Origin: Chloroflexota bacterium | GTDB lineage: Bacteria; Chloroflexota; Limnocylindria; Limnocylindrales; CSP1-4 | Reading direction: 5' to 3' | Assembly: GCA_003171255.1 (NCBI GenBank) | Contig: PMYK01000045.1 | Location: 30,735 to 72,389, forward strand | DNA length: 41,655 bases | Shown: piece by piece, positions 4,846 through 25,441 of the stretch | Layout: every line of letters starts with the position of its first letter | Position numbering within the stretch: the first letter of the stretch is position 1 | Notes under the pieces: generated by a model | What the model was told of the DNA's origin: nothing | Databases searched by the model: none | Seen by the model: only the letters and a program-made list of their open reading frames with translations | Translations under genes and position numbers: made by a program

Positions 4846-5538
4846 ATGAACGATCCGCGCGCGAATGACTCGTTCTCGGAAATGACTGTCGGCCAATTCG
4901 TCGAGCGTCTGTCCTCGGCCGAACCCGTTCCCGGAGGCGGATCGGCCTCGGCGATAGCGGCAGCGCTTGGGGCGTCGCTCATCTCGATGGTCGCCGCCCT
5001 ATCGACAGGCAAGCCCAAGTACGCGGCCTACGAGCCGACTCTCGCCAGGTGCGAGGCGGTTGGGCACGAACTCGCTGCGGAGTTCCTGCGCCTGGCGGAT
5101 CGCGACGCCGAGGCCTACGCTGGCTATGCGGCGGCCCTTAAGCTGCCGCGCGAGCCCGAGGAGCAGCAGGAGGCACGGCGGACGGCTATTCGTGCGGCGG
5201 CGCGCGTGGCTTCGGAGGCGCCCTGGGAGTGCGCCAAGGCCTGCGGGCGATTAGCAGTCGCGGCTGAGGCTCTGGCCGGGCGTAGCAACGTGAACGCCGC
5301 AAGTGATGTGCTCGTGGCCGCGCTGCTCGCGGAGGCCGCTGCGCGGGGCGCGGCCGAGAACGTGCTGATCAACCTGCCCTCCACGGGCGACGAGCAGTAC
5401 GCGGAGACGATGCGCTGGAACGTGGACTCCATGCTCCACGAGATCGCGGCGGTTGCGGCCCGGACCCGCGAGATCGTCCTGTCCGGGCAGTTGCAGGAAC
5501 CGGAACCGGAACCGGAACCGGAGCCGGAGCCAGCGTGA
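4846..5538 (+). CDS. fchA: Cyclodeaminase/cyclohydrolase family protein (formimino-THF cyclodeaminase or methenyl-THF cyclohydrolase)
   Basis: 230 residues, all-helical FTCD_C/FchA family. The PVPGGGSASA signature is at 27-36, and the helices and NVNAASDVLVAALLAEAAARGA segment follow in the usual order. Members either release ammonia from 5-formimino-THF, giving 5,10-methenyl-THF, or interconvert methenyl-THF and 10-formyl-THF (FchA of acetogens and methylotrophs). Both roles suit the context: a separate ftcD at 23148 lacks this domain, and the gene directly heads folD-fhs. The C-terminus ends in six Glu-Pro pairs (218-229), encoded by GAACCG/GAGCCG repeats, an unusual tail absent from typical members. 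Its stop overlaps the GTG start of folD, indicating translational coupling. Symbol given by family and context, not proven activity. Confidence 0.85.
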   Translation: MNDPRANDSFSEMTVGQFVERLSSAEPVPGGGSASAIAAALGASLISMVAALSTGKPKYAAYEPTLARCEAVGHELAAEFLRLADRDAEAYAGYAAALKLPREPEEQQEARRTAIRAAARVASEAPWECAKACGRLAVAAEALAGRSNVNAASDVLVAALLAEAAARGAAENVLINLPSTGDEQYAETMRWNVDSMLHEIAAVAARTREIVLSGQLQEPEPEPEPEPEPA

Positions 5539-6470
5539 CCGACGCACGAGACGGAGGCGCGGCGGCGCCCGGGCCCCGCTTGCTCACCGGCAGCCCGATC
5601 GCGGCGGAGATACGCGCGGGGCTGACCGAGGACTTCGCCAGGTTCAAGGAGCGCTGGGGCCACTCGCCGACGCTCGCTGTGGTGCTGGTCGGAGCGGATG
5701 CTCCGTCGGCGGTCTACTTGCAGCAGATCCTGCGGAGCTGCCAGAAGGTCGGAGTCGACGGGCGGCTTGTCGAGATCGGCTCCGAGGTAACGCCCGAGGC
5801 TCTTTGCACAGAGATCGAGGCGCTCAATGCCGATGCGGCGGTCGCCGGGATCATCGTCCAGATGCCCCTGCCGGCCCACATCCCCCTGCGGACGGTCATC
5901 GACTCGATCGATCCAGCCAAGGACATCGACGGCATCCACCCCCGCAACGCCGGCCTGCTCTCGCTAGGCTACGACGGCTTTCTGCCGGCGACGGCCCAGG
6001 CCTCGGTCGAGATCCTCAAGCGGTCGGGCATCGAGATTGCCGGCAAGCGCGTGGTCGTGATCGGGCGCTCGAACGTGGTCGGCAGGCCGGCCGCGCTGCT
6101 GCTCATTCGCGAGCACGGCACGGTGACCGTGCTCCACTCCAGGACGCGCGACCTGGGCCACCACACCCGCGACGCCGAGATCCTGATCGTGGCCGCCGGA
6201 AAGCCGGGCCTGGTCACGGGCGAAATGCTCTCGCCGGGGGTGGTCGTCGTGGACGTGGGCATCAACGTCGTCCCCGATGGCCAGGGCGGTGAGAAGCTCG
6301 TCGGCGACGTGGACTTCGAATCGGCGAAGGGCGTCGTCTCAGCGATCACTCCGGTGCCGGGTGGGGTGGGGCCCCTGACCAACGCGCTGCTGCTGACGCA
6401 CTTGCTCCGAGCCGCCACGGACCAGGCGGAGCAGGGCGCTCGACCGACCGCGACCGGCGTGATGCCGTGA
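5535..6470 (+). CDS. folD: FolD: methylene-THF dehydrogenase with altered cyclohydrolase active site
   Basis: 311 residues, starting with a GTG that overlaps the previous stop. FolD normally oxidises 5,10-methylene-THF with NADP and hydrolyses methenyl-THF to 10-formyl-THF. The NADP-binding domain is intact (VIGRSNVVGRPAALLL, then HSRT) and the C-terminal PGGVGPLTNALL motif is present. Active-site Tyr61 is present, as are the Gln of IIVQMPLP and the Asp of PAKDIDG. However, the lysine four residues after the tyrosine in the usual YxxxK motif is Ile65 (YLQQI; codon 5727-5729). That lysine is considered essential for cyclohydrolase and not for dehydrogenase chemistry, so this enzyme may only be a dehydrogenase, with the upstream FchA-like protein doing the hydrolysis. 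It overlaps fhs by 4 bases. Confidence 0.94.
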   Translation: MTDARDGGAAAPGPRLLTGSPIAAEIRAGLTEDFARFKERWGHSPTLAVVLVGADAPSAVYLQQILRSCQKVGVDGRLVEIGSEVTPEALCTEIEALNADAAVAGIIVQMPLPAHIPLRTVIDSIDPAKDIDGIHPRNAGLLSLGYDGFLPATAQASVEILKRSGIEIAGKRVVVIGRSNVVGRPAALLLIREHGTVTVLHSRTRDLGHHTRDAEILIVAAGKPGLVTGEMLSPGVVVVDVGINVVPDGQGGEKLVGDVDFESAKGVVSAITPVPGGVGPLTNALLLTHLLRAATDQAEQGARPTATGVMP

Positions 6471-8197
6471 GTGCCGCTGCGCCCATGCCCAACAGCCTGG
6501 AGATCGCGCGGTCCGTCACCCCGCGGCCGATCATGGAACTCGCCCGCGAACTTGGGCTCCATGACGACGAGGTGGAACAGTACGGGCCGTACAAGGCCAA
6601 GATCTGCCTGGCAGGCATCGAGCGTCTCGAGGCAAAGGCGGCAGCCGAGGGTCGGCGCGGCAAGTACGTCGTCGTCACGGCAATCACGCCGACGCCGCTG
6701 GGCGAGGGCAAGACGACCACCAACATCGGCCTCGTCCAGGGGCTCAACCGGATCGGGCATCGCGCGGCGGTCTGCATCCGCCAGCCGTCGCTCGGTCCGG
6801 TGTTCGGGATCAAGGGCGGCGCCGCGGGCGGCGGCTACAGCCAGGTGATCCCGATGGAGGACTTCAACCTCCATCTCACCGGCGACAACCACGCCGTCGG
6901 CGCGGCCCACAACCTGCTCGCAGCGTTCGTGGACAACTCGCTCATGCACAACAACCCGCTCGGCATCGATCCGCTCGGCGTCGTCTGGCCCAGGGTTGTC
7001 GACATCTCCGACCGGGCCGTCCGCAAGGCGATCATCGGTCTCGGCGGCCGCGAGAACGGTTACCCGCGCGAGACCGAGTGGCAGATCACCGTCGCCAGCG
7101 AAGTCATGGCGGTCCTGGCGCTCGCATCGAACCTCCAGGACCTGCGCCAGCGATTGGGCCGGATGATCGTGGCCACGACCTTCGACGGACGCCGCATCAC
7201 CGCGGAAGACCTCAAGTGCGCCGGCGCGATGACCGTCCTGCTGCGCGACGCGATCAAGCCGAACCTGCTCCAGACGCTCGAGGGCGGCCCCGCCTTCGTG
7301 CATTGCGGGCCGTTCGCCAACATCGCCCACGGCAACAACAGCATCCTGGCCGACCGGCTGGCGCTGGCCACGTGCGAGATCGCCTGTACTGAAGCCGGTT
7401 TCGGGGCCGACATGGGAGCCGAGAAGTTCTTCGACATCAAGTGCCGCCAGAGCGGGCTGCGCCCCGACGCAGCCGTGATGGTTGCCACAGTCCGGGCCCT
7501 CAAGATGCACGGCGGCGTCGGTCGGATCGTGGCCGGCAAGCCGCTCGACCCCGCGCTGGGGCAGGAGAACGTCGACGCGGTGCGCAAGGGCTCGGCCAAC
7601 CTGGCCGCTCAGATCGAGAACGTCCGCGTCTTCAACGTGCCGGTAGTTGTAGCGATCAACCACTACCCGGGCGACACGGACGCGGAGGTGGCCGCGATTC
7701 GCGAGGTGGCGCTGGCCGCCGGGGCGCGAGACGTGGTGGTGAGCCGCCACTTCGCCGACGGTGGAGCGGGCGCGGAGGACCTGGCCCGTGCCGTCTGGTC
7801 GGCGGCGGAGGAGGGCGCCCCGGACTTCCGGCTGCTGTACCCCGACGACCTGCCCCTGCGCGAGAAGATCGAGACGGTCGCAGTCCGAATCTACGGCGCT
7901 CGCGGCGTCGACGAGCTGCCCGCGGCCACCAAAGCACTCAAGCTCTATGAGGACCTGGGCTTCGGCAGTCTGCCCGTCTGCATGGCCAAGACTCACCTTT
8001 CGCTCAGTCACGATCCGGGTCTCAAGGGTCGGCCGACCGGCTTCCGCGTCCCCATCCGCGAGGTCCGCCTCTCGGCCGGCGCCGGATTCGTCACCCCGCT
8101 CCTCGGCGAGATGCGCACCATGCCGGGCCTGCCGTCGCACCCCGCCGGCGAGTTGATCGACATCGACGCCGATGGCAACATCGTCGGCTTGTTCTAG
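6467..8197 (+). CDS. fhs: Formate--tetrahydrofolate ligase
   Basis: 576 residues (family about 555). It joins formate and THF using ATP to give 10-formyl-THF, or runs in reverse to recover ATP and formate. The Walker-A-like TPTPLGEGKTTT is at about 74-85. Other family blocks are visible: RQPSLGPVFGIKGGAAGGGYSQV (shown here only as the family landmark near 100-120), NLHLTGDNHAVGAAHNLL and EAGFGADMGAEKFFDIKCR. A GTG at 6467 overlaps the folD stop and is used here; an ATG at 6485 would remove six residues and is also possible. With the two upstream genes it forms a complete methylene-, methenyl- and formyl-THF interconversion unit like the upper methyl branch of acetogens, although nothing in the window shows an acetyl-CoA pathway. 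Confidence 0.96.
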   Translation: MSAAAPMPNSLEIARSVTPRPIMELARELGLHDDEVEQYGPYKAKICLAGIERLEAKAAAEGRRGKYVVVTAITPTPLGEGKTTTNIGLVQGLNRIGHRAAVCIRQPSLGPVFGIKGGAAGGGYSQVIPMEDFNLHLTGDNHAVGAAHNLLAAFVDNSLMHNNPLGIDPLGVVWPRVVDISDRAVRKAIIGLGGRENGYPRETEWQITVASEVMAVLALASNLQDLRQRLGRMIVATTFDGRRITAEDLKCAGAMTVLLRDAIKPNLLQTLEGGPAFVHCGPFANIAHGNNSILADRLALATCEIACTEAGFGADMGAEKFFDIKCRQSGLRPDAAVMVATVRALKMHGGVGRIVAGKPLDPALGQENVDAVRKGSANLAAQIENVRVFNVPVVVAINHYPGDTDAEVAAIREVALAAGARDVVVSRHFADGGAGAEDLARAVWSAAEEGAPDFRLLYPDDLPLREKIETVAVRIYGARGVDELPAATKALKLYEDLGFGSLPVCMAKTHLSLSHDPGLKGRPTGFRVPIREVRLSAGAGFVTPLLGEMRTMPGLPSHPAGELIDIDADGNIVGLF

Positions 8198-12533: not shown

Positions 12534-14213
12534 ATGCGGGATATGCTCACCGACGTGAGCGACACGCCCAGGTCCCCCGACCTCGGTCCGCACCGTCATC
12601 TGCCCGAGTCGCATTGGCTGCGGCAAACGCTGCCAGCTGAAGCGGAACTCGTGCTGACGGGCGCCGACCTGACGATTGCGGACGTGGAGGCGGTGGCGCG
12701 CGGTGGGCGTCGGGTCTCGTTGGGGGACGAGGCGCGGGCGCGCGTCATCGAGGCCCGAGACGTCATAGAGCGGCTCGTCGAGGCCGGCGAGATCGTCTAC
12801 GGCGTAACGACCGGTTTCGGCGATCTGGCTACCACCTTCATCGACGCGGCCGACTCGGCCCGGCTCCAGGAGAACCTGCTCGTATCGCACGCCGTCGGCG
12901 TGGGCGAGCCGCTGCCACGGGACGTGGTTCGGGCCATGCTGCTGCTGCGGGCCAACACCCTGGCCCTTGGCCACTCCGGTTGCCGGCCGGTCGTGATCGA
13001 CCGCCTCTGCGATCTCCTGCGCCTCAACATCCACCCCATCGTGCCGTCGCAAGGGTCCGTTGGCGCGTCCGGAGACCTGGCTCCGCTGGCGCATCTCGCG
13101 CTGCCACTCACGGGTCGGGGGCACGTGGAGGTTGGCGGGCGGGTCATCGCCGCTTCCGAGGCACTGGCCGCCGCGGGCCTCGAACCGCTGGAGTTGCAGG
13201 CCAAGGAGGGCCTGGCACTGCTCAACGGCACGCAGATGATGAGCGGCATCGGTGCTCTCGTTGCCGCGGATGCCCACCGCCTCATGCGCGCCGCCAGCGT
13301 GGCGGCCGCGATGAGCTGCGAGGCCCTGCTGGGGACAGACGTGGCGTATGCCGCCGCGTACCAGCTGGCCCGGCCGCACCCCGGCCAGATAGCCGTCGCC
13401 GCGGAGCTGCGCTGGCTGCTGCGTGACTCCACGCTCATGACCAGCCACCACGCCTCGACCCACAAGGTCCAGGACCCGTATTCGCTCCGTTGCGTGCCGC
13501 AGGTCCACGGCGCTGTCCGCGACGCGCTCGACTATCTCTGGGGCGTGCTCGACATAGAGCTGAACTCCGCCACGGACAACCCGCTCGTCTTCCCGCAGGG
13601 CGGTGTGGCCGACGCCAGGGCCGCGGCCACGGGCGGCGGCCTCGTGATCAGCGGCGGCAACTTCCACGGCGAGCCCGTGGCCATTGCCCTGGACTTCGCC
13701 AAGCTGGCTCTGTCCGAGCTGGGCGCGATCTCCGAGAGGCGGACTGCGCTCATGGTCGATGCGCGGTTGAACGGCGGGCTGCCGCCGTTCCTCTCATCTG
13801 GCAGCGGGCTCGAGTCGGGTATGATGCTCCTCCAGTACACCGCCGCCGCGCTCGCGTCGGAGAACAAGGTCTTGGCCCACCCTGCCAGCGCCGATTCGAT
13901 CCCGACGTCGGCCAATCAAGAAGACCATGTGTCCATGGGATCGATCGCGGCCCGTCATGCAATGTTGGTTGTCGCCAACGTCCAGCGGATCATCGCCCTG
14001 GAGCTCCTGGTCGGTGCCCAGGCGCTCGACTTCAGACTCGAGCTGGTCGCCGCCGAGGGCGCGAAGGTCAGGCCGGGCGCAGGAGTCGACGAAGCCCACC
14101 GACGCATTCGGTCGGTGGTTCCGCACCTCGGCCACGATCGACTGCAGGGCAGCGATATCGAGTCGGCCGTCAGGCTGGTCCGAGAAGGCTCACTCGTCGA
14201 TCTCGTCGGCTGA
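12534..14213 (+). CDS. hutH: Histidine ammonia-lyase
   Basis: 559 residues; converts histidine to urocanate and ammonia, the first step of histidine degradation. The self-forming MIO electrophile comes from Ala-Ser-Gly at 178-180 in GSVGASGDLAPLAH, which is intact. YGVTTGFG at about 89-96 carries the catalytic tyrosine, and the late SANQEDHVSMG block is the usual substrate region. The true N-terminus may be the ATG at 12534 or the GTG at 12555: TATGCT (12542-12547) sits 7 bases before that GTG, in the leaderless pattern. Either way the N-terminus is some 20-30 residues longer than in common homologues. The other hut genes are at 18286, 23148 and 24107, not adjacent. Confidence 0.95.
   Translation: MRDMLTDVSDTPRSPDLGPHRHLPESHWLRQTLPAEAELVLTGADLTIADVEAVARGGRRVSLGDEARARVIEARDVIERLVEAGEIVYGVTTGFGDLATTFIDAADSARLQENLLVSHAVGVGEPLPRDVVRAMLLLRANTLALGHSGCRPVVIDRLCDLLRLNIHPIVPSQGSVGASGDLAPLAHLALPLTGRGHVEVGGRVIAASEALAAAGLEPLELQAKEGLALLNGTQMMSGIGALVAADAHRLMRAASVAAAMSCEALLGTDVAYAAAYQLARPHPGQIAVAAELRWLLRDSTLMTSHHASTHKVQDPYSLRCVPQVHGAVRDALDYLWGVLDIELNSATDNPLVFPQGGVADARAAATGGGLVISGGNFHGEPVAIALDFAKLALSELGAISERRTALMVDARLNGGLPPFLSSGSGLESGMMLLQYTAAALASENKVLAHPASADSIPTSANQEDHVSMGSIAARHAMLVVANVQRIIALELLVGAQALDFRLELVAAEGAKVRPGAGVDEAHRRIRSVVPHLGHDRLQGSDIESAVRLVREGSLVDLVG
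12542..12547 (+). promoter_or_regulatory. -10-like box TATGCT (possible leaderless hutH start at 12555)
   Basis: TATGCT followed by 7 bases and an in-frame GTG at 12555. If this is the real -10, the ATG codons at 12534 and 12543 would lie outside the mRNA and HutH would be seven residues shorter. Confidence 0.4.
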
Positions 14214-14237
14214 GGGAGCCGGCCCGCCGTCGTGCAG

Positions 14238-15044
14238 TCAGGAGGGCAGGGCCGGCCGGACGGCTCCGGAGCAGCGATCGATGGCCCGCCGGACGCGGAC
14301 CTCGTCGGCGACGCCGGCCTGCTGCAACGCCCACAACGCGGGCAGCAGACGCGGATCGGCCGCGGCGGCGGCGGCGTCGACTTCCAGACCGGCGACGAGC
14401 GGCGAGCGCAGGGCCCGGATCAGATGCGGAACGGCTCGTGGATCGCGCCGGACCGCCAGCCCGAACAGAGCCTCGGCCCGCGCCTCGTGATGAATGTCCT
14501 CGGCCCGCTCCAACAGCGCGGCTCGAATGTCCGGGCCGTCGGCATCCGAGAGTGTGCCCAGCCCGAACGTGGCCCAGTCTCGCACTTCGGGGTCGGTGTC
14601 GCGGGAGAGGCGGATCAACGCGGTTCGCGCCTCAGGCACTAGAGGCTGGGGGCTGATCGTGGCCACGGCAAAGGCGACCGCCAGCCGCACCTCCGCGCTC
14701 GGGTTGCTAGCCAGCGGGAAGACCATGCCCAGGGTGCCCGCATCGCCCAGATGCCCGAGCGCCGCGACGATCGATGCCAGCGCGGAGGCGGCCTCCTCTA
14801 CGGCCAGCGCCGTGAGCAACGCCTCACCGACGGCCGCCCGGGTGCCCTGCTCCACGCCGACCAGCCGGCCCAGAATGTCGGCCCCAAGGGTCCGTCCGCG
14901 GTCGGTATCGCTGCTCAGCAATGCAGCGGCAGCCTCGAGAATGTCGTCTGGACACTCCGTCAGAATGCCGCCGATCAGATCCCAGCGACAGTCTTCGTCG
15001 TAGGTTCCGAGGGCGGCTTCGATGCGGATGTCGAGAGGCCGCAT
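14238..15044 (-). CDS. HEAT-repeat protein
   Basis: 268 residues of repeated helical pairs, for example ALASIVAALGHLGDAGTLGMV, AEVRLAVAFAVATI, PEVRDWATFGLGTLSDADGPDI and HHEARAEALFGLAVRRDPRAV. These match HEAT/PBS-lyase repeats, usually protein-binding scaffolds. No catalytic domain is visible, so its partner and role are unknown. The ATG at 15044 is backed by an excellent Shine-Dalgarno (GAGGTGATCT directly before it). It converges with hutH, 24 bases apart, and lies downstream of an MFS gene on the same strand after a 221-base gap that contains GC-rich stems (CCCCG-N5-CGGGG near 15125) but no gene. Confidence 0.8.
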   Translation of the reverse strand: MRPLDIRIEAALGTYDEDCRWDLIGGILTECPDDILEAAAALLSSDTDRGRTLGADILGRLVGVEQGTRAAVGEALLTALAVEEAASALASIVAALGHLGDAGTLGMVFPLASNPSAEVRLAVAFAVATISPQPLVPEARTALIRLSRDTDPEVRDWATFGLGTLSDADGPDIRAALLERAEDIHHEARAEALFGLAVRRDPRAVPHLIRALRSPLVAGLEVDAAAAAADPRLLPALWALQQAGVADEVRVRRAIDRCSGAVRPALPS

Positions 15045-15265
15045 AGATCACCTCATCAAATCGGCGACCGCCCCGTGGCCGCCCGCTCCTATGTCGCTGT
15101 TCGGGACCCGATCCGACCATTTGCCCCGTCGGTCGGGGAATGCCGCAAGTTTGCGCCTGCAGATCGGCGAGTGACAGTTGGTCGCACGTGGGGGAACGGC
15201 CGAGCCATCCACCGCCCCGACCCCGAGCGCCCGTGCTCGGGCGTGGCCCGAGCCGGTCCCGAGCC

Positions 15266-16591
15266 CTACTTCCTCGGGCCCGGATGCACGGTGGCGAGGA
15301 GCAGGACGACGGCGGCCGCGGCGCAAGCGGAACCGAACCAGAACGGGGCCGGCGGGGCTATCGCGGTCCACAGGATGCCGGCGATCACCGAAGCCGGAAG
15401 GATCATGGTTCCCTGGACGGCATTGAGTATCCCGAACGCCGTGGCTCTCAGCTCTGTCGGAGCGAGGTCGGCCACCAGGGCCTTGCCCACGCCTTCGCTC
15501 AGGGCGTAGTACGTGCCGTAGGCGATCCAGAGCGGAACCACCCAGACGGCCGAGCTGGCTACGGCGAAGCCCGCGTAGCAGGCCGCGTATATCAGCCAGG
15601 CCAGGGCGATGAGCCCGCGACGACCAATGCGATCGGAGAGGGCTCCGGCCGGCCAGGCCACGACTGCGTTGGTGGCGTTGAAGGCCACGATGGTCAGCAG
15701 CAGCGCGAGCAGCGTCAGGCCCAGGTCCTGCGAGCGCAGGGCCAGGAATGCGTCGCTGGAGTTGCCCAGGGTGAACAGTGCGTTGGCGAGCATGAACAGC
15801 CAGAACGGGCGGGGGAAGCGACGCCACATCGCGCTGTCGCCGACGATCTTGCGAGGCAGGCCCCAGATCGACACCGGCGCAGCGGTCGGCACCGTCGGGG
15901 CGGAAGGGGCGGCCGGGCCAGCCGAAACCGGCGTATGGCGCGGCACGTCGCGCACGCCCACAACGATTGTGGCGATGGCGAGCACCCCTGGAACCAGGGC
16001 CAGCAGGACCAGGATCCGGAAGGTGTCGCTGGTGAGGCGGGTCGCGTCGCCCTCGGTAGCCCAGATGACAGCCGCGGCCACCAGCACGCCCGCAAAGGCG
16101 CCCGTGGTGTCCATGGCGCGGTGGAGACCGTAGGCGACGCCACGATTCTCCGGAGCTGTCGAATCGGCGATCAGCGCATCTCGCGGCGAGGTCCGGATCC
16201 CCTTGCCGAACCGATCGCCGACGCGGCCGAGCAGCACCACCGGCCAGGCCACTGCCACCAGGTACAGGCCCTTGGCCGCGACCGAGGTTCCGTAGCCGAT
16301 CCCGACGAGCAACCGCCTCCTCGACAGCCGATCGGAGAGGGCGCCGCTGACCAGCTTCAGGACAGACGCGGTGCTCTCGGCGACTCCCTCGATGAGGCCG
16401 ATGACCGCGACCGGCGCCAGGAGAACGTTGGCCAGATAGAGCGGGATGAGGTATACGAGCATCTCGCTCGAAATGTCAGTGAACAGGCTGACAAAGCCCA
16501 GGGCCACGACGTTGCGCGTTATGCCTCGCGTAAGCGCGCGGCGCCAGCGTGGGCCCGACTCGGGCGACTGGGAAGCTGAGGTGGAAGCCAT
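15266..16591 (-). CDS. Major facilitator superfamily transporter
   Basis: 441 residues with about 12 membrane segments. After a short hydrophilic N-terminus comes NVVALGFVSLFTDISSEMLVYLIPLYL, then GALSDRLSRRRLLVGIGYG (motif A). This matches the large bacterial group of uncharacterised MFS permeases whose first helix reads LxSLFxDxSSEM. The linker between the two halves is Pro/Ala-rich. Substrate unknown. The ATG at 16591 is chosen because homologous sequence begins soon after and TAGACT lies 10 bases upstream; the frame stays open further but the added residues are low-complexity. Confidence 0.85.
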   Translation of the reverse strand: MASTSASQSPESGPRWRRALTRGITRNVVALGFVSLFTDISSEMLVYLIPLYLANVLLAPVAVIGLIEGVAESTASVLKLVSGALSDRLSRRRLLVGIGYGTSVAAKGLYLVAVAWPVVLLGRVGDRFGKGIRTSPRDALIADSTAPENRGVAYGLHRAMDTTGAFAGVLVAAAVIWATEGDATRLTSDTFRILVLLALVPGVLAIATIVVGVRDVPRHTPVSAGPAAPSAPTVPTAAPVSIWGLPRKIVGDSAMWRRFPRPFWLFMLANALFTLGNSSDAFLALRSQDLGLTLLALLLTIVAFNATNAVVAWPAGALSDRIGRRGLIALAWLIYAACYAGFAVASSAVWVVPLWIAYGTYYALSEGVGKALVADLAPTELRATAFGILNAVQGTMILPASVIAGILWTAIAPPAPFWFGSACAAAAVVLLLATVHPGPRK

Positions 16592-16701
16592 GGTGGCGTC
16601 GAGTCTAGCGGTCGGACGTCCGGCGGGCAGCGCCCGATCAAACGGCCCCGGGGGCGCTTGACGGCGTGGGGGGCGGTCGGCGCCAACAGCGTCAGTTGCC
16701 G

Positions 16702-16707
16702 TACAGT
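16702..16707 (+). promoter_or_regulatory. -10-like box TACAGT (GNAT gene, possible leaderless start)
   Basis: TACAGT followed by 8 bases and the ATG at 16716. A TTG codon overlapping this region is in frame but less likely as a start. Confidence 0.35.
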
Positions 16708-16715
16708 TGGACACC

Positions 16716-17531
16716 ATGGCACGCCTTGAGATCGTGGACGTCACCGACGAAGCCCGCTTCGCGCTGGTTCCGCCGTGCGCGGACCCGTCGTTCGACCACC
16801 GCACCTGCGACTACTGGGAGGACTCCGATCGAGGCTCGAGGGCGAGCCGACCGAACTGGCTTCCCGCCGGTTTGACCGGCTCGGATGGCGGTTGGGCCGA
16901 GCGACCGACCGGGGGCTCGGCGGCCAACCCCTTCGCACCGCCGCCGCGATCCGAGTCGAATCCATTCCTGCCGGCACCGAAGGCCGCCACGAACCCGTTT
17001 GCCCCGGTCTCCAAGGAACCCGCGCACAATTCGTTCCTCGAGCAACGGCAGGGGTCGCCCGCCGACAACCCCTTCGCGCCGTCGCGCCCCGCCCGCCCGA
17101 CGATCGCCGCGGAGGCCCCGCGTAAGTTGCAGATGCTCGGTCGAGGGCTGGGCATATTCGGCAGCTACGCCAGCCTGCTCCTGGCCGATGGCGAGGCGGT
17201 GGGCTACTGCCAGTTCGGGCCCTTGTCGGCGTACCCACGCGCGTTGCGCCTGCGCCAGCTCTACACCGAGCTGCCGGATGCGCCCCTGCCGGCGGTCATC
17301 ACCTGCATCGCGACCACCCCCGACGCCCGCCGGAAGGGCTACGCCCTGCGGCTCGTCGAAGAGGTCTGCGCCGATCTCGAGGGCCGGGGCTTCGCCGCGG
17401 TCGAGGCCTATCCGGAAGCCCAGGCCAGGGAGGACGGCACGCCGGCGGCGCGGCCCGAGTTCTGGGTGCACGCCGGCTTCCGACTGGCCGTCGACGACGA
17501 GCGTTATCCGGTTCTGCGTCGTGAGCTCTGA
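16716..17531 (+). CDS. GNAT N-acetyltransferase with an inserted NPF-repeat linker
   Basis: 271 residues. The N-terminus ends in HRTCDYWED (about 28-36), like actinobacterial GNAT proteins that begin with a Cys-x-x-Trp-Glu element. The C-terminal half is the acetyltransferase fold: GEAVGYCQFGPL, PAVITCIATTPDARRKGYALRLVEEV with the acetyl-CoA-binding RRKGYA at 205-210, then EFWVHAGFRL. Between them, residues about 68-125 form an unusual linker with Asn-Pro-Phe at 71, 82, 93 and 118 and a related Asn-Ser-Phe at 105, spaced 11-13 residues. The acceptor substrate is unknown. The next gene starts one base after its stop, so the two are probably co-transcribed. Confidence 0.82.
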   Translation: MARLEIVDVTDEARFALVPPCADPSFDHRTCDYWEDSDRGSRASRPNWLPAGLTGSDGGWAERPTGGSAANPFAPPPRSESNPFLPAPKAATNPFAPVSKEPAHNSFLEQRQGSPADNPFAPSRPARPTIAAEAPRKLQMLGRGLGIFGSYASLLLADGEAVGYCQFGPLSAYPRALRLRQLYTELPDAPLPAVITCIATTPDARRKGYALRLVEEVCADLEGRGFAAVEAYPEAQAREDGTPAARPEFWVHAGFRLAVDDERYPVLRREL

Positions 17532-17532
17532 G

Positions 17533-18171
17533 ATGCGCCTGACTCGCAGTGCCGCGAGGCTCCGCGCCCGTGGCGTCGGGCATGCCACGTTCGTACTGGC
17601 GGCGCTGCTGGCCGTGGTGGCCGTCGCCGGCTCCGCGTGCGATCAAGCGGTCGCGACGCCCACGCAGCGCTACACGGCGGTTCCCATCGGACCCACCCCG
17701 TGGGCCAGCGGTACGACCGGGCAGTACGGCCTGCACATCGACCCGGGTCTTTTCGGCAAGCTGCCTCACCAGGTGGGCGCCCAGCCGATCGTCGAGGACG
17801 CCGAGAGCGAGTCGGTGGCAATGGACAATGCTGACCTGGCCAGGACGTTCGATGGCTACGCCGCGGGATCGATCGGGGAACTCGGCGACGACAACTGGCT
17901 CAAGCTCATGGTCGCCCATTTCCGTCCCGAGAATCAGAACACCGACGTGTTGTCGGCCTGGATCGACCAGTACGCCGCGGGCGCGTGTTCGCAAGCGAAC
18001 GCCGTCTCGAGCTCGACGCAGGAGACGATCAACGGCTTCATCGTCGATGTGGCGACCTGCGGCGGGGGACCCGTCGTGTACACGGTCCTGCTCGACGACC
18101 AGGTCGTGCTCTCGATGTTCGATTTCGGGCCCAAGCAGCTCGGCCGCCAGCTGATCGAGGCCATCTATTAG
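17533..18171 (+). CDS. Hypothetical secreted or lipid-anchored protein
   Basis: 212 residues, starting at an ATG two bases after the GNAT stop. An Arg-rich N-terminus leads into the hydrophobic segment ATFVLAALLAVVAVAGSAC, so it has a signal peptide. Cys at about 36 could be a lipobox cysteine, though the residue three before it is Gly, which is atypical. The mature part has no family I recognise; SSTQETINGFIVDVATCGGGPVVYTVLLDDQVVLSMFDFG looks like a small beta-rich domain. Probably an extracytoplasmic protein expressed with the acetyltransferase. Confidence 0.7.
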   Translation: MRLTRSAARLRARGVGHATFVLAALLAVVAVAGSACDQAVATPTQRYTAVPIGPTPWASGTTGQYGLHIDPGLFGKLPHQVGAQPIVEDAESESVAMDNADLARTFDGYAAGSIGELGDDNWLKLMVAHFRPENQNTDVLSAWIDQYAAGACSQANAVSSSTQETINGFIVDVATCGGGPVVYTVLLDDQVVLSMFDFGPKQLGRQLIEAIY

Positions 18172-18248
18172 CGACTCGGCCTCGGCATGACGGTTCGGCC
18201 GGACCGGAGCACACTTGGACGGAGCGCTCGGGCAGGGCCCGGGCCGAA

Positions 18249-18267
18249 ACCCAGGCGCAGCCTGGGT
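18249..18267 (+). promoter_or_regulatory. Hairpin directly upstream of the hutU ribosome-binding site
   Basis: ACCCAGGC (18249-18256), loop GCA, GCCTGGGT (18260-18267): a perfect 8-bp stem ending 7 bases before the GGAGG at 18275-18279. It may influence translation initiation of hutU, or may be the end structure of the preceding gene; no T-run follows. Confidence 0.4.
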
Positions 18268-18285
18268 CACCTTCGGAGGCCTCTG

Positions 18286-19974
18286 TTGGCGATCGAAGCC
18301 GACCCAAAGCCCCGTGCCGGACCGCGCCCCGTACGCGCTCCGCGCGGCCCCGAGCTCAGCTGCAAGGGCTGGGCCCAGGAAGCCGCCCTGCGCATGCTCA
18401 TGAACAACCTGGACCCCGAAGTGGCCGAGCGCCCGGACGACCTCGTCGTCTATGGCGGCACCGGCCGCGCGGCGCGCAGCTGGGACGCCTTCGACGCCAT
18501 CGTCCGTGAGCTGCGCCGCCTCGAGAACGACGAGACGCTGCTGGTCCAGTCCGGCAAGCCGGTCGGCGTCTTCCGGACGCATGAGTGGGCGCCGCGAGTC
18601 CTGATCGCGAACTCGAACCTGGTCGGGAAGTGGGCCAACTGGGACACCTTCCGCGAACTCGAGCGGGCCGGCCTGACGATGTACGGGCAGATGACCGCGG
18701 GATCGTGGATCTACATCGGCACTCAGGGCATCCTCCAGGGCACGTACGAGACGTTCGCGGAGCTGGCCCGCCAGCACTTCGGCGGCAGCCTGCGTGGCCG
18801 CGTGACGCTCACCGCCGGACTCGGCGGCATGGGCGGCGCGCAGCCGCTGGCGGTGACGATGAACGAGGGGGTTGCACTGGTCGTGGAGGTGGACGAAGCG
18901 CGGGCCCGTCGGCGCCTCGACATCGGCTACGTGGATCGGCTGACGGACTCGCTCGACGAGGCGCTGGCCTGGGCTCGCTCGGCTGCGGCCGAGGGACGCG
19001 CCGAATCGATCGCCCTGGTCGCCAACGCGGCGGAAGTCGAGCCCGAGCTGGTCCGGCGCGGCGAACGTTTCGACGTCGTCACCGACCAGACGTCGGCCCA
19101 CGACGCGCTGAACGGCTATGTGCCGGCGGGGCTATCCGTGGCGGCGGCCGCCGAGCTGCGCAGCGCCAACCCCGGCGAGTACGTTCGGCGCTCGATGGAA
19201 TCGATGGCCGAACACGTCCGGGCTATGCTCGCCCTCAAGTCGGCCGGTGCGGTGACCTTCGACTACGGCAACAACATCCGCGCCCAGGCCCAGACAGCCG
19301 GTGTTGCGAACGCCTTCGACTTCCCGGGTTTCGTGCCCGCGTTCATTCGGCCGCTCTTCTGCGAGGGCAAGGGGCCGTTCCGGTGGGTCGCGCTGTCGGG
19401 CGATCCGGCGGACATCCTGGCCACCGATCGGGCCATCCTCGAGCTCTTCCCGGAGGATGCGTCACTTCGGCGGTGGATCGAGATGGCGGAGGCGCGGGTG
19501 CCTTTCCAGGGGCTACCGGCCCGGATCTGCTGGCTCGGCTACGGCGAGCGGTCGAAGGTGGGGCTGGCCTTCAACGAGCTGGTTCGTTCCGGCCGGGTAA
19601 GCGCACCGATCGTGATCGGGCGCGACCACCTCGATTCGGGGTCGGTCGCCTCGCCGAATCGGGAGACAGAATCGATGCGTGACGGCTCGGACGCGATCGC
19701 CGACTGGCCGCTTCTCAACGCCCTGGTCAACACTTCGGCCGGGGCAAGCTGGGTGAGCATTCACCACGGGGGAGGGACCGGTATCGGGTACTCTCAACAT
19801 GCCGGAATGGTCGTCGTCGCCGATGGCTCCGACCTCGCCAAGCAGAAGCTGGAGCGGGTCCTGACGACCGATCCGGGCATGGGTGTCATCCGCCACGCCG
19901 ACGCAGGCTACGACCGGGCGGTGGAGGTCGCGCGGGAGCGCGGAGTCCGCGTCCCGATGCTCGAAGACGACTAA
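18286..19974 (+). CDS. hutU: Urocanate hydratase
   Basis: 562 residues; adds water to urocanate to give imidazolonepropionate, using tightly bound NAD+. The N-terminal block [20 protein letters not shown] and the [11 protein letters not shown] motif are diagnostic. NAD-binding residues lie in [19 protein letters not shown], and the conserved active-site cysteine is in [10 protein letters not shown] (Cys415). The C-terminal [17 protein letters not shown] and [15 protein letters not shown] are intact. The start is a TTG at 18286: it is the only nearby start with a Shine-Dalgarno (GGAGG at 18275-18279, 6 bases away) and gives the usual length. The frame continues upstream to 18187 but that part is low-complexity. 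Confidence 0.95.
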
Positions 19975-19985
19975 GGGGAGATAGG

Positions 19986-20699
19986 TTGGGCTATCGAGTC
20001 CAGGGGGTGATGGTTCGAGCCAGGCCGGATGCCGCCGGGCTGACGGTGCTGGAGCGCGCGTACGGCTACCGACTCTTCGAGATGGCGGGCTGCGGGCTGT
20101 GGCTGATCGACCTCGGCGTGCCCGAGCCGAAGGCCGGAGATCGGGCGATCATTCGAGCCGCTCGACCGCTGGCGTCCGGCTATGTCGATGCCCTGCGGGT
20201 CCTCGGCAGTGACGAGGAAACGTTCGAGCAGCTGGCCTGGCTGGCCGCCTCGGCAATCGCCGCCAAACAGTTTCGGCAGCCCGTCCTCGGTTTCGTCTCG
20301 GACGACGCTGTGCTCGACTTCGCCGTGATCGTCACCCCGGACGGAGTAGGGGTGATCGGCGACAAGCTCGGCCAGTACCTGCTCCGCTGGGAGTCGGGCG
20401 CACTTGCCATCCAGCCGTTCACGAGCGGTGGCGATCGCCAGGAGCCCCCGATTGCGCCCGAGGAGCTGGCGCTCATCCCTGCCGTAACGCTGCTCGCCAC
20501 CGAGACGTTGGGCAGCGGCGGCTACCCGCTCCACGGCAACGTCATGGCCGAGATGCGCGGTTTCGCCGACGGCGCGGCCGGTCTGGGCATCGGCACCTGG
20601 GACATCGGCCAGGTGGGCTCGCTGCGACTCGTGGAAGCCAAGGGCCTCGACCACAGCCTCTGGGATCGAGCCGCCGGCGCGGCCGCGCGGACCCGCTAG
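19986..20699 (+). CDS. Hypothetical protein next to hutU
   Basis: 237 residues that I do not recognise. A TTG at 19986 is preceded by GGGGAG (19976-19981); a GTG/ATG pair at 20007-20012 is an alternative start. No signal peptide, membrane helix or Cys cluster is visible. The sequence looks like an ordinary soluble alpha/beta protein (YGYRLFEMAGCGLWLIDLG, LGFVSDDAVLDFAVIVTPDGVGVIGDKL). It follows hutU by 11 bases on the same strand and so is likely co-transcribed with it. A role in histidine use is possible but only by position. Confidence 0.7.
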   Translation: MGYRVQGVMVRARPDAAGLTVLERAYGYRLFEMAGCGLWLIDLGVPEPKAGDRAIIRAARPLASGYVDALRVLGSDEETFEQLAWLAASAIAAKQFRQPVLGFVSDDAVLDFAVIVTPDGVGVIGDKLGQYLLRWESGALAIQPFTSGGDRQEPPIAPEELALIPAVTLLATETLGSGGYPLHGNVMAEMRGFADGAAGLGIGTWDIGQVGSLRLVEAKGLDHSLWDRAAGAAARTR

Positions 20700-20814
20700 C
20701 CGGATTGGCGGGCCCGCCGGCATGGCGTTCGGTCGGGATTGCGTGCCTGGAGCTAGCGGTTGGCCCCTGCGGGGTCTAGCATCCCTGCACCAGCCACCTC
20801 AGAGGGAGAGCCAA

Positions 20815-21570
20815 ATGGAGTCACGAAATCTCAACCGGCCCAGCTATGTGCTGGCCCTGCTGCTCGGGTTCATCGCCATCGTCGATGCAGGTAATGCCCT
20901 CGTCGGCATGCAGACCGGCGAGTTCTGCACCGCCTTCTCGTCGGCCGCGGTCGTCGGTTGTGGCAACTCCGGTTGGTTCATCGATCTGTTTACGTCCGGC
21001 GTGAGTGCCGCCCTCCTCGCTCTGTTGCTTATGAGGCCCCACCTTTACGTCTTCACGGCCGTCGTGGCGTGGTCATTCCTCGCCTTCGGCGCGAACTTTC
21101 TTATGCGCCAGACCCCGGGCCTCGACTCTCTCGCGACCGTCCGAATGACTGTCCACTTTGTGATCTTCGTCGTGGCCGGCGTGCTGTTGATCGTGGAAGG
21201 ACAGAAGTGGCTCGAGGCCGAACGGGCAAAGCGGCCCGTCGCGCCCGCGATGGCGGCGATGCCGGTCTGGACCGGGGCCGGCTGGGTCGTTCCGTACGCT
21301 CCGCCGCCGATCCAGTCGACGATCCAGTTCGGCGCCCCCGCCTCTTCGCAGCCGCCGTTCGGGTCGCCCTGGATGCCGCCCGCTCAGACCCCGCCCTACG
21401 GCACGCCATTTGCCCCGCAGGCCGCTCCTCAGCCGGCCGTGGCCCAGGAGCCGCTCGCTGCGGTCGCTCCCGTGGCGCCGGGCGACGCCGCGGCGCCTGG
21501 CGCAACTCCGGTCGCGCCGGCTCCGCCGGCTCCGGCCGAGCCCATCGGCGACGCAGGCTCGAACAAGTAG
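20815..21570 (+). CDS. Membrane protein with Pro/Ala-rich cytoplasmic tail
   Basis: 251 residues from the ATG at 20815, which has a strong purine-rich Shine-Dalgarno (GAGGGAGAG). The first 130 residues hold four hydrophobic helices (VLALLLGFIAIVDAGNALVG; LFTSGVSAALLALLLM; VFTAVVAWSFLAFGANFL; VHFVIFVVAGVLLIVEG). A Pro/Ala/Gln-rich tail of about 100 residues follows. Cys residues at about 35 and 46 lie on the loop after helix 1. I do not recognise a family. It lies between hutU and an MFS gene without an obvious link to either. Confidence 0.7.
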   Translation: MESRNLNRPSYVLALLLGFIAIVDAGNALVGMQTGEFCTAFSSAAVVGCGNSGWFIDLFTSGVSAALLALLLMRPHLYVFTAVVAWSFLAFGANFLMRQTPGLDSLATVRMTVHFVIFVVAGVLLIVEGQKWLEAERAKRPVAPAMAAMPVWTGAGWVVPYAPPPIQSTIQFGAPASSQPPFGSPWMPPAQTPPYGTPFAPQAAPQPAVAQEPLAAVAPVAPGDAAAPGATPVAPAPPAPAEPIGDAGSNK

Positions 21571-21610
21571 ATCCGCCTTTCGGTCGGCGGCGCGGGCGGA
21601 CCCGGGCAAC

Positions 21611-22978
21611 TCAGTCGGTCGGGTCGGGGTCAGGTCGGCGGCGGCGCGCGGGCATACCCATGGCGGTCGGACCCATCGCGTCCGGGTGAGCAGAGTTGGC
21701 CGTGTTCGCTGTCGGTGAGCCCTCGGTCGGGATCTCGCGGAGCGACCTCAGGGGCGAGAGCAGAAGCGGCAGGAGCGCCGCGGAGGAGGCCACTCCGGCG
21801 ATGACAAGGGCCGTCCGAACGGGCAACAGCGTGGCCATCACGCCGCCCAGGATGGACCCGATCGGGAGGGTTCCCCAGACGATGAAGCGCAACGTCGCGT
21901 TCATGCGGCTCTGCATCTCCGACGGAGTGATGGCCTGTCGGAGGCTGATCTGGGCCACGTTGTAGATGACCTGGCTCATACCGGCCACGAACCAGCCGAC
22001 GAAGAGCGTCACCGCGGCCAGGTTCAGGTCCGCCGGCGTGAGGGTCATCAGGAGGAAGGCGGGCGGGCCGAGAACAGTCGCCACGATGATCGTGCGCCCG
22101 AGCCCAATCACGTTCGGCAACCGACTCGAAAGGGCGGCCCCAACCAGGAAACCGATACTCGCCAGACCCATCACCGTGCCGAAGAAGGCGGGCGGCAGCC
22201 TGAGCTCGTGCCAGATCAGGACGGGGAAGACGCCGAAGAGAGCGGCGCCGAACAGGTTCGTAATGCCGGTGCAGGCGGCGATCGCCCTTAGGTAGCCATT
22301 GCCGAGGACGAAGCGCAAGCCCTCCGCGATCTCGGCGCCCATCGACGCCGGCCGGCCGGACGCGTCGAGCCTGCGCTCAGGCTTACTCTCGCGGCGGCGA
22401 ATGGAACTGATGAACCCGCCGGACACGAAGAAGCTGATCGCGTCGACGGCGAGGGCGATGGGTGCGGCCACGACCGCGATCATGTTTCCGGCCAGGGTTG
22501 GGCCGCCGATCTGGGCCACCGAGTAGCTGATCTGGAGATTGGCGTTGCCGTCTACCAGATCGTCGCGCTCGAGAATGGCCGGAAGGTACGACGCGTCGGC
22601 GATGTCGAAGAAAGCGCTCAGGGTGCCCATTACGAAAGCGACCACGAATAGCTGCCAGATCGTCAGGGCATCGAGGAGGTAGGCGACCGGGATGGAAAGC
22701 AGGACGATCCCGCGGCCGATGTCCGCGGCGACCAACACGGGTCGCCGTCGGACGCGATCCAGCCAGGCTCCGGCCGGCAGGGTGAAAAGCAGGAACGGCA
22801 GCATCTCGACGGCGGCCAGCAACGAGACCTGGAGGACGCTGGCGCCGAGCATTGTGAGAGCGATGAACGGCAGGGCGATGATGGTGATCTGGCTGCCGAG
22901 AATCGAGACCGTCGCGGCCGACCAGACCTTCACGAAGTCGGGATGCCGCCACAACGACGGCCTTGACGTCCCGGTCAT
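21611..22978 (-). CDS. MFS transporter (drug-efflux/MFS_3-like)
   Basis: 455 residues, about 12 membrane helices. It begins MTGTSRPSLWRHPDFVKVWSAATVSILGSQI, the typical opening of MFS_3/enterobactin-exporter-like permeases (LWRxxDFxKxWxxxxxSxxGSQ), followed by GAWLDRVRRRPVLVAADIGRG (motif A). Likely exports a lipophilic compound; substrate unknown. The ATG at 22978 has GAAGGAAGG just upstream; another in-frame ATG at 23002 is possible. It is divergent from ftcD. Confidence 0.85.
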   Translation of the reverse strand: MTGTSRPSLWRHPDFVKVWSAATVSILGSQITIIALPFIALTMLGASVLQVSLLAAVEMLPFLLFTLPAGAWLDRVRRRPVLVAADIGRGIVLLSIPVAYLLDALTIWQLFVVAFVMGTLSAFFDIADASYLPAILERDDLVDGNANLQISYSVAQIGGPTLAGNMIAVVAAPIALAVDAISFFVSGGFISSIRRRESKPERRLDASGRPASMGAEIAEGLRFVLGNGYLRAIAACTGITNLFGAALFGVFPVLIWHELRLPPAFFGTVMGLASIGFLVGAALSSRLPNVIGLGRTIIVATVLGPPAFLLMTLTPADLNLAAVTLFVGWFVAGMSQVIYNVAQISLRQAITPSEMQSRMNATLRFIVWGTLPIGSILGGVMATLLPVRTALVIAGVASSAALLPLLLSPLRSLREIPTEGSPTANTANSAHPDAMGPTAMGMPARRRRPDPDPTD

Positions 22979-23147
22979 GCGCCTTCCTTCATCGCGCGGC
23001 ATGCTAGCGTCCAAACCCTGGTCGGGCATTAGGCGACCAGTCGCATTGGTCCTGTGCCACGATACGGATGCCGCTACCGGACGGACTGTTGGCCCAGGTG
23101 GGTAGCCTGCTCGGGACGGTAGCCCGGCAGGCGATATCGGAGGTCGC

Positions 23148-24110
23148 GTGGCGAAGCTCATCGAGTCGGTCCCGAACTTCAGCGAGGGGCGTCGGATCGA
23201 CGTCGTCGACAAGCTTGCCGCCGCGGTCGAGCGAGTTCCGGGAGCGTTCCTGCTCGATCGAACCAGCGACGCCAGCCACAACCGCAGCGTCCTGACCCTG
23301 GCCGGCGAGCCCGCGCCGATTCTCGAGGCGCTCGAGCGCACCGTGGCTGTCGCTGTCGCCGAGATCGACATGGGGAAGCACACCGGCGAGCACCCGCGCA
23401 TCGGAGCGGTCGACGTGGTCCCGTTCGTGCCTCTGGCGGGCGCCAGCATGGCCGATTGCATCGAGCTTGCCAGGGCCTTTGCCGAGCGAGTGGCCGACCG
23501 TTTCGGCATCCCCGTCTACATGTATGGCGAGGCTGCCACTTCTCCTGCCCGCCAGCGGCTGGCGGATATCCGGCGCGGCCAGTACGAGGGTCTCAGGACG
23601 CAGATCAGCGAAACGGGCCGAGAGCCGGACTTCGGCCCGGCCAGGGTCCACGCCACTGCCGGGGCGATGGCGGTCGGCGCCCGGCCGTTCCTGATCGCCT
23701 ACAACATCAACCTCGAGAGCCGCGACCTGGAGCTGGCCAAGCGCATCGCGCGCCGGATCCGCGAGTCGAGCGGCGGCCTGCCGCGCGTCCAGGCCAACGG
23801 CTTCTGGATCGAGGAGCTGGACCGGGCGCAGGTATCGATGAACCTGCTCGACTACCGCACCACACCACTATGGCTTGTCTGGGAGGCGGTCAGGTCTGAG
23901 GCGGCCGAGGACGGCGTCCACCTGGCCGAATCCGAGCTGATCGGGCTGGCGCCGCTGGGGGCCCTGGTCGACGTCGCCGACCATGCGGGCGTGTCGGCGC
24001 ATCTGTCCCAGACGGAGAGACTGGCCGGAGCGGCGGCCTTCCTCAAGCTGCGCGACTTCTCGCCGCTCCAGACGCTCGAGTTGCGGCTCGAGGCAGCGCG
24101 GAGAATATGA
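23148..24110 (+). CDS. ftcD: Glutamate formimidoyltransferase (stand-alone FtcD N-terminal domain)
   Basis: 320 residues; moves the formimino group of N-formiminoglutamate to THF, giving glutamate and 5-formimino-THF. The start MAKLIESVPNFSEGR and the catalytic-histidine block GEHPRIGAVDVVPFVP are characteristic, and GPARVHATAGAMAVGARPFLIAYN is the folate-site region. It lacks the C-terminal cyclodeaminase domain of bifunctional FTCD; that function is best assigned to the gene at 4846. The GTG start has GGAGG (23138-23142 region) 5 bases upstream. Its stop overlaps the hutI ATG (ATGA), so the two are translationally coupled. Confidence 0.93.
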   Translation: MAKLIESVPNFSEGRRIDVVDKLAAAVERVPGAFLLDRTSDASHNRSVLTLAGEPAPILEALERTVAVAVAEIDMGKHTGEHPRIGAVDVVPFVPLAGASMADCIELARAFAERVADRFGIPVYMYGEAATSPARQRLADIRRGQYEGLRTQISETGREPDFGPARVHATAGAMAVGARPFLIAYNINLESRDLELAKRIARRIRESSGGLPRVQANGFWIEELDRAQVSMNLLDYRTTPLWLVWEAVRSEAAEDGVHLAESELIGLAPLGALVDVADHAGVSAHLSQTERLAGAAAFLKLRDFSPLQTLELRLEAARRI

Positions 24111-25441
24111 GCGGCTTCGCGGCGAGTGGCTTGCTCATCGAGGGCGCCGCGTCGATCGCGACCATGGCCGGCGGCCTGCGGTGCGGGTCCGCCCAGGCGG
24201 ACGTGGCCACGATCTCGGGCGGCCCTCTCGCCGTCGCGTGCTGGGAGGGGCGAATCCTTGCCGTCGGCTGGAGCGACGAGGTCCACCGCCAGATCGTGGC
24301 CGAGGGGCTTCCGCTCGACGCCTTCCGCCGTCTCGACGCCGCCGGCGGCCTGGTCACGCCCGGATTGATCGACGCCCACACGCATCTCGTGTTCGCCGGA
24401 ACGCGCGAGGGCGAGTGGCAGATGCGGGCACGCGGAGCCGGCTATCTCGAGATCCTCGAGGCCGGGGGAGGGATCCTCTCGACCGTGGCCGCGACGCGCG
24501 CCGCCTCGGACGCGGACCTGCTCGCGGGCGCACGACGCCGCCTGGCCGAAATGCTCGCCAGCGGCACCACTACGGCCGAGGCAAAGTCCGGCTACGGGTT
24601 GGATGTGGCGACGGAGTTGCGCCAGCTCGACGTTATCGACCGCCTCGATCGCGAGGGCCCGGTGCAGCTGGTGCCGACCTACCTTGGCGCGCACGCCGTC
24701 CCCGCCGAGTATCGCGGCAGGCCCGATGGGATCGAGGCGTACGTCGCGGACGTCGTCGGCAAGCAGCTGCCGGCCGTCGTCCGGCAGGGGATCGCCCGCT
24801 TCTGCGACGTCTTCTGCGAGCGCGACGTCTTCAGCGCTGACCAGAGCGCTCGCATCCTGGGCGCCGCCCGGGGTGCCGGCCTGGCACTCCGACTCCACGC
24901 CGACGAGCTCGCTCCGTCGGGCGGAGCCGAGCTGGCGGCCGAGCTGGGCTGCCTCTCGGCCGATCACCTCGCGGCCTCGTCGGAGGAAGGCATCGCGGCC
25001 CTCGCGCGCGCCGCCGCCGGGGATCGCCCCGTCGTGGCCACGCTTCTGCCGGCCACGAGCTGGTTCCTGGGCAAGCATCACTTCGCCCCGGCCCGCCGCT
25101 TCATCGACGCCGGAATCCCGGTGGCCCTGGCCACGGACCTCAACCCCGGCACGAGCCCCACGGTCAGCCTGCCACTGGTCATGTCGATCGCCTGTCTGGA
25201 GATGAGCCTGACCCCGGCCGAGGCACTCGTCGCGGTCACGATCAACGCGGCCCACTCGGTCGGACTCAGCTCGGAAATGGGCTCGATCGAGCCCGGCAAG
25301 CAGGCCGACCTTGTCGTCTGGGACGTGCCGTCGATCGACCAGCTTCCCTACTGGCTGGGGGCCCGTCTGGCCCGCACGGTCGTCAAGCGCGGGCGAGTGG
25401 TGTTCGGGAACGGACGAGTACGCCGATGTCCCAGCACCTGA
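24107..25441 (+). CDS. hutI: Imidazolonepropionase
   Basis: 444 residues (family about 400-420); hydrolyses 4-imidazolone-5-propionate to N-formimino-L-glutamate. Amidohydrolase metal ligands are visible: DAHTHLVF (His91, His93), LHADEL, the SADHLA histidine and ATDLNPG with the catalytic Asp. GTREGEWQMRARGAGYLEIL is the family's substrate segment. An extended N-terminus of about 25 residues precedes the first strand. It starts in the ftcD stop and its own last codons overlap the next gene, so ftcD, hutI, the radical SAM gene and the HEAT gene form one compact transcription unit. Confidence 0.95.
   Translation: MSGFAASGLLIEGAASIATMAGGLRCGSAQADVATISGGPLAVACWEGRILAVGWSDEVHRQIVAEGLPLDAFRRLDAAGGLVTPGLIDAHTHLVFAGTREGEWQMRARGAGYLEILEAGGGILSTVAATRAASDADLLAGARRRLAEMLASGTTTAEAKSGYGLDVATELRQLDVIDRLDREGPVQLVPTYLGAHAVPAEYRGRPDGIEAYVADVVGKQLPAVVRQGIARFCDVFCERDVFSADQSARILGAARGAGLALRLHADELAPSGGAELAAELGCLSADHLAASSEEGIAALARAAAGDRPVVATLLPATSWFLGKHHFAPARRFIDAGIPVALATDLNPGTSPTVSLPLVMSIACLEMSLTPAEALVAVTINAAHSVGLSSEMGSIEPGKQADLVVWDVPSIDQLPYWLGARLARTVVKRGRVVFGNGRVRRCPST

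Follow-up and report, generated by a model that had tools for sequence, protein, structure and literature searches.

FolD of the E. coli type is a bifunctional enzyme with two Pfam domains, a Tyr, a Gln and an Asp in its active site, and the Lys of a YxxxK motif. It is established that, in other bacteria, the dehydrogenase and the cyclohydrolase are separate enzymes. In Clostridium perfringens, FolD is reportedly a monofunctional dehydrogenase accompanied by a separate FchA cyclohydrolase and by Fhs, in the work of Aluri et al. (2016). The division between FolD and FchA is already known biochemically from clostridia, and the core idea considered here is not new. PMC6443876 refers to a monofunctional dehydrogenase from Peptostreptococcus productus, and a cyclohydrolase of C. 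formicoaceticum appears in a reference title within PMC7793690. FchA is treated as a separate enzyme in PMC7219735, and fchA and folD stand beside fhs in PMC3584212.

The window, that is, the whole analysed stretch of 41,655 nucleotides from a Chloroflexota bacterium of the class Limnocylindria, carries an fchA-like gene, folD and fhs as one unit (Table 1). FolD possesses the two Pfam domains of the E. coli type (THF_DHG_CYH, 1.7e-31; THF_DHG_CYH_C, 4.1e-59), with scores above the family cut-offs (PF00763, 109.3 bits against 32.8; PF02882, 198.9 bits against 27). Fhs exceeds the cut-off of NCBIfam PRK13505 (776.9 bits, cut-off 652). The fchA-like product belongs to the FTCD_C domain family (PF04961, 187.5 bits against 24.5). 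It reaches 151.8 bits with the NCBIfam FchA model NF045657, where the cut-off is 275, and for this reason it is filed as an FTCD_C protein and not as an equivalog of that model. Its best solved relative is the methenyl-THF cyclohydrolase FchA (PDB 7vg4/7vg5; residues 14-213, 2e-29 for 7vg4), which we take to come from Methylorubrum and to be paired there with MtdA and not with FolD. The FTCD_C domain is also common to formiminotransferase-cyclodeaminase (FTCD; 1tt9, 2.2e-26, and 2pfd). FTCD is a fused protein, whereas the window holds a separate formiminotransferase (FT) gene, and the FTCD_C gene neither is fused to it nor adjoins it; the two are approximately 18 kb apart, and the FTCD_C gene is tied to folD. 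The FTCD_C protein probably works like FchA. The likeness to C. perfringens would consist of a dehydrogenase FolD, a separate FchA and Fhs.

Table 1. Coordinates of the folate genes and histidine degradation genes in the window.
Feature	Position	Strand	Remarks
fchA-like FTCD_C protein, 230 aa	4846..5538	+	Pfam FTCD_C 2.4e-55; predicted methenyl-THF cyclohydrolase, possibly formimino-THF cyclodeaminase too
folD, 311 aa, YxxxI instead of YxxxK	5535..6470	+	GTG start; predicted dehydrogenase only
Ile65 codon ATC, at the YxxxK lysine site	5727..5729	+	
fhs, formate-tetrahydrofolate ligase, 576 aa	6467..8197	+	GTG start; Pfam FTHFS 9.1e-248
hutH, histidine ammonia-lyase	12645..14213 (start approximate)	+	TIGR01225 646.9 bits, cut-off 539.15; PF00221 1.2e-192
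hutU, urocanate hydratase	18187..19974	+	TIGR01228 989.9 bits, cut-off 375; PF01175 3.1e-89
FT, stand-alone glutamate formimidoyltransferase	23148..24110	+	TIGR02024 346.2 bits, cut-off 221.25; PF02971 3.0e-29
hutI, imidazolonepropionase	24107..25441	+	TIGR01224 448 bits, cut-off 298.15

The difference from the E. coli type lies in the motif, which reads Y61-L-Q-Q-I65 in an alignment with other FolDs, so the Lys of the bifunctional enzyme is missing, and Gln109 and Asp132 are retained. The earlier note had reported these residues together with 4-base overlaps at both gene junctions; when the sequence was read again, the numbering of Tyr61, Ile65, Gln109 and Asp132 was right, and the overlap was GTGA at both the fchA/folD and the folD/fhs junction. 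Ile65 is not a sequencing slip, because I, L or V occupies the lysine site and an FTCD_C gene lies immediately upstream of folD in 24/24 genomes of the same class, its own included. The window FolD also keeps all columns that are invariant among 28 aligned sequences (itself among them), and structure prediction gives a confident fold with a mean pLDDT of 92.9. A FolD with Tyr, Gln and Asp but without Lys is best read as a putative dehydrogenase. In one genome of the same class (G123), the active-site Tyr is replaced by Phe, and in a few distant FolD relatives, Tyr and Asp are changed too.

It is very likely, as far as sequence can tell, that the step of the usual bifunctional FolD is divided here between the Lys-less FolD and the neighbouring FTCD_C protein. 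Without Lys at position 65, FolD would oxidise methylene-THF to methenyl-THF and would no longer open the ring. The FTCD_C protein next to it would hydrate methenyl-THF to 10-formyl-THF, which Fhs, according to its family assignment, would connect with formate and ATP. In its own genome, the same FTCD_C protein would probably carry out the cyclodeaminase step of histidine breakdown too.

The pairing of a Lys-less FolD with an FTCD_C protein was found both in the window and in a wider survey. The earlier note had proposed that the loss of Lys be checked for co-occurrence with an adjacent fchA, and had held that an equal frequency in genomes without fchA would speak against the split. Profile searches with PF00763, PF04961 and PF02971 were run across 201 genomes from the phylum, and an HMM alignment of the FolD loci showed which residue occupies the lysine site. 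A type was assigned to 189 of the 190 FolD-bearing Chloroflexota genomes (G169 was left out), and the lists of FTCD_C and FT presence were transferred by hand into the count scripts. A gene was taken as directly upstream if it lay on the same strand with fewer than 600 bases between the matched domains. Only Lys-less FolD was found in 128 genomes, a class that is provisional for multi-FolD genomes other than those whose extra copies were read. FTCD_C is present in 124 of these 128, directly upstream of folD in 108 and not seen there in 16; the exceptions with no FTCD_C match are G032, G135, G143 and G151. The 59 genomes with K-type FolD only contain FTCD_C in 23 cases and directly upstream in 0, and the co-occurrence was therefore borne out. 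At least two FolD matches occur in 29 genomes, and the extra copies were read in nine (G009, G016, G024, G057, G084, G100, G114, G116 and G172). A Lys-less copy stood alongside another Lys-less copy in all of them except G057 and G114, the two genomes that have both types and that carry no FTCD_C.

The distribution of FT helps to separate the two possible uses of the FTCD_C protein. Among FT-less Chloroflexota genomes, FTCD_C was found in 70/74 with Lys-less FolD versus 0/32 with K-type FolD, which indicates that FTCD_C tracks the FolD type even without the FT route of histidine degradation. All 23 K-type genomes with FTCD_C also carry formiminotransferase; FTCD_C and FT are fused in 16 of them, neighbours in 3 and on separate contigs in 1, and for the other 3 the FTCD_C position is unlisted.

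A second group consisted of 148 genomes from the class of G201, taken as Clostridia, with FolD in 138 and FTCD_C matches in 55. Typing covered 103 of the 138; the 35 genomes left out are all without FTCD_C. Lys-less FolD was accompanied by FTCD_C in 49/50 genomes (G234, with an unreadable site, is among the 49 and was counted as Lys-less), directly upstream in 25 and not seen so in 24, and the one exception is G239. FTCD_C was found in 3/52 K-type genomes, with one of the three matches below the Pfam cut-off, and the loss of Lys was thus not equally common without fchA. In the one genome with both FolD types, FTCD_C adjoins the Lys-less copy. Class-mates of the clostridial contig resemble the window in that the Lys is lost beside FTCD_C. 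There are also differences. In the FolDs of this survey, as distinct from that of C. perfringens itself, Lys is mostly replaced by Ala (in 28 of the 51 in the Lys-less count), and Phe, Leu or Met takes the place of the partner Gln (47/51), as would be expected if a cyclohydrolase site decays, whereas the window has Ile and keeps Gln. Where Fhs was seen next to a Lys-less clostridial FolD on the same strand, it lies upstream, but in the window it lies downstream. In four Clostridia genomes, Lys is changed to Gln; the partner Gln is kept, and FTCD_C is located elsewhere in the genome in 4/4.

In both surveyed groups, YxxxK can serve as a simple reading aid, since a FolD without the Lys mostly predicts a separate FTCD_C gene. 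For the window FolD, the 25 NCBIfam matches listed (of 30) are all named bifunctional, and none of these 25 is over its cut-off. In PMC7325909, the monofunctional or bifunctional state is judged from the absence of fch alone.

The genome counts must be read together with the phylogeny of the enzyme. In a tree of 152 FolDs, built with the two diagnostic columns left out, four changes between K and non-K suffice, and two are forced by starred branches. Since the changes are so few, the genome counts and their Fisher p-values do not represent independent events; independent pairs number two on starred branches and four on all branches, too few for a sign test. To judge from this tree, the lineage of Lys-less FolD is old, and its association with FTCD_C is for the most part inherited. 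The best separate event of Lys loss on the same tree is the Lys-to-Gln clade, in which three of the four FolDs are placed, forming one clade within the K clade. The claim of the earlier note that FolD had been split with its neighbour is supported by the genome comparison, but the split is not a local one and belongs to an old FolD subfamily.

The possible role in histidine degradation, also raised in the earlier note, has been strengthened. The window contains hutH, hutU, hutI and FT, the last two overlapping by 4 bases, and the FT protein is devoid of a cyclodeaminase domain. The genome of the window (2.56 Mb, 91% complete) yielded a single FTCD_C match and no match to the arginase family, which includes HutG. 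The FT product, 5-formimino-THF, needs a cyclodeaminase, and so the sole FTCD_C protein found, encoded beside folD, is the candidate; given the hut genes and FT, it is probably also a cyclodeaminase. The cyclodeaminase function might then be the only one, with the change in FolD unrelated and 10-formyl-THF supplied by Fhs. These same genes, the single FTCD_C match, the near equality of the FTCD and cyclohydrolase structure matches and the position of FT 9 to 19 kb from FTCD_C on the same contig in 9/24 genomes of the class would all agree with this. It is nevertheless improbable, because FTCD_C adjoins folD throughout the class, was seen within 5 kb of FT in 0/24 genomes (15/24 have the two on different contigs), and is kept with Lys-less FolD in the FT-less Chloroflexota.

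The evidence leans slightly towards both functions residing in one FTCD_C protein, which would act as the cyclohydrolase for the Lys-less FolD and as the histidine cyclodeaminase, with the two routes to methenyl-THF meeting there. FT and FTCD_C occur together in 24/24 genomes of the class, with one FTCD_C match in 23 and two in G171. Other arrangements in the survey point the same way and favour dual use: FT, FTCD_C and FolD lie side by side on the same strand in G019, and in G065, G097 and G193, the sole FTCD_C match adjoins FT and the Lys-less FolD is located elsewhere. In Limnocylindria-like genomes, a two-job FTCD_C protein that is always available could explain the permanent loss of the FolD lysine. 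Neither the tree nor the residues allowed cyclodeaminase and cyclohydrolase FTCD_C proteins to be told apart. FT-bearing genomes are interleaved with FT-less ones on the FTCD_C tree (G047 with G006, G019 with G029), and no diagnostic residue was found: those conserved in more than 75% are largely common to four rows labelled as fused cyclodeaminases, one of which (L058 of G065) was so labelled merely for its long frame, with FT on the other strand. The lack of a diagnostic residue fits dual use of this putative enzyme but does not prove it. Among the matches listed from the open-access literature, titles and abstract openings contain no single FTCD_C protein with both jobs. What is less expected in the present reading is that the FTCD_C protein looks like the sole candidate for the final folate reaction in histidine degradation. 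If dual use is true, one enzyme would link histidine breakdown to the formate/ATP step, and it would allow the separability of cyclohydrolase and cyclodeaminase activities in the FTCD_C fold to be tested directly.

The predicted division of labour also depends on the role of the Lys itself. PMC3338484 assigns it the role of general acid/base in the cyclohydrolase reaction. In PMC9173628, the dehydrogenase KM of the K56E variant of MTHFD1 is more than 6-fold higher, and the isotope ratio changes little; the dehydrogenase data are taken there as a binding effect, and the role of Lys in the cyclohydrolase step is regarded as unsettled. This last point and the retained Gln109 would allow FolD to be bifunctional still, through another residue, with the FTCD_C neighbour only boosting flux. 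Such an arrangement is very improbable: a search of alignment columns revealed none that gains a Lys across the Lys-less FolD sets, and the partner Gln is gone in many Lys-less FolDs, whereas K-type FolDs keep it in 61/62 cases in Chloroflexota and 53/53 in Clostridia. Lys71 occurs in 65% of the FolD set closest to that of the window, compared with 5% of other Lys-less Chloroflexota. PMC3368264 assigns Lys56 a role in the dehydrogenase step too, in hydride abstraction, and on that basis, the window FolD might be weakened altogether. That neither activity is left in it, or that it has taken on a different role, as this assignment and the changed Tyr and Asp of distant relatives might suggest, is extremely unlikely for the sole FolD found in a 91% complete genome (one PF00763 match), with its retained Tyr, Gln, Asp and invariant columns and its confident predicted fold. 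The named relatives of the window FolD at 80-93% identity are from Chloroflexi MAGs, and one at 65% is from Candidatus Limnocylindrales.

Two kinds of FolD that depart from the YxxxK motif were found in arrangements of their own. In the YxxxQ FolDs (loci L360, L361, L362 and L364 in the Clostridia genomes G351, G302, G246 and G274, respectively), Gln stands in place of the motif Lys. The three that were placed on the FolD tree fall within its Lys clade, and each of the four genomes carries an FTCD_C gene, located away from folD. The Ile-type FolDs, which have Ile at this position, include those of the Chloroflexota genomes G057 (L067) and G114 (L032), where an Ile-type gene is followed directly by a Lys-type gene. 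The Chloroflexota genome survey gave no FTCD_C match in either genome, and labour is possibly divided between the tandem copies.

Ile-type FolD is also encoded directly downstream of the FTCD_C genes L283 (G174) and L284 (G190), whose products are very divergent (branch length of 4.87 in the FTCD_C tree). The loci L289 (G143), L290 (G135) and L291 (G151) encode odd FolD relatives in which Tyr is replaced by Phe, Lys by Leu, Gln by Val and Asp by Glu. Their genomes had no FTCD_C match in the same survey, and these proteins perhaps have a function other than that of FolD.

The histidine-degradation genes of the window are scattered across 13 kb and interspersed with other genes. The stand-alone glutamate formimidoyltransferase gene (FT) lies on the same contig as the fchA-folD pair, 9 to 19 kb apart, in nine of the 24 surveyed genomes of the class, the source genome included. 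Consecutive Glu-Pro repeats, EPEPEPEPEPEPA, form the C-terminal end of the window's FTCD_C protein. Two ORFs lie immediately 3' of hutI.

Features of the window discussed in this part
Feature	Position	Description
Glu-Pro repeat run	5497-5535	C-terminal end of the FTCD_C protein
hutH, hutU, FT, hutI	12645-25441	
Stretch 3' of hutI	25426-28028	two ORFs
ORF 1 after hutI	within 25426-28028	matches TIGR04083, radical SAM peptide-modifying family, from residue 87 onward
ORF 2 after hutI, next to the TIGR04083 ORF	within 25426-28028	phycobilin lyase CpcE and NblB models, matches below cut-off
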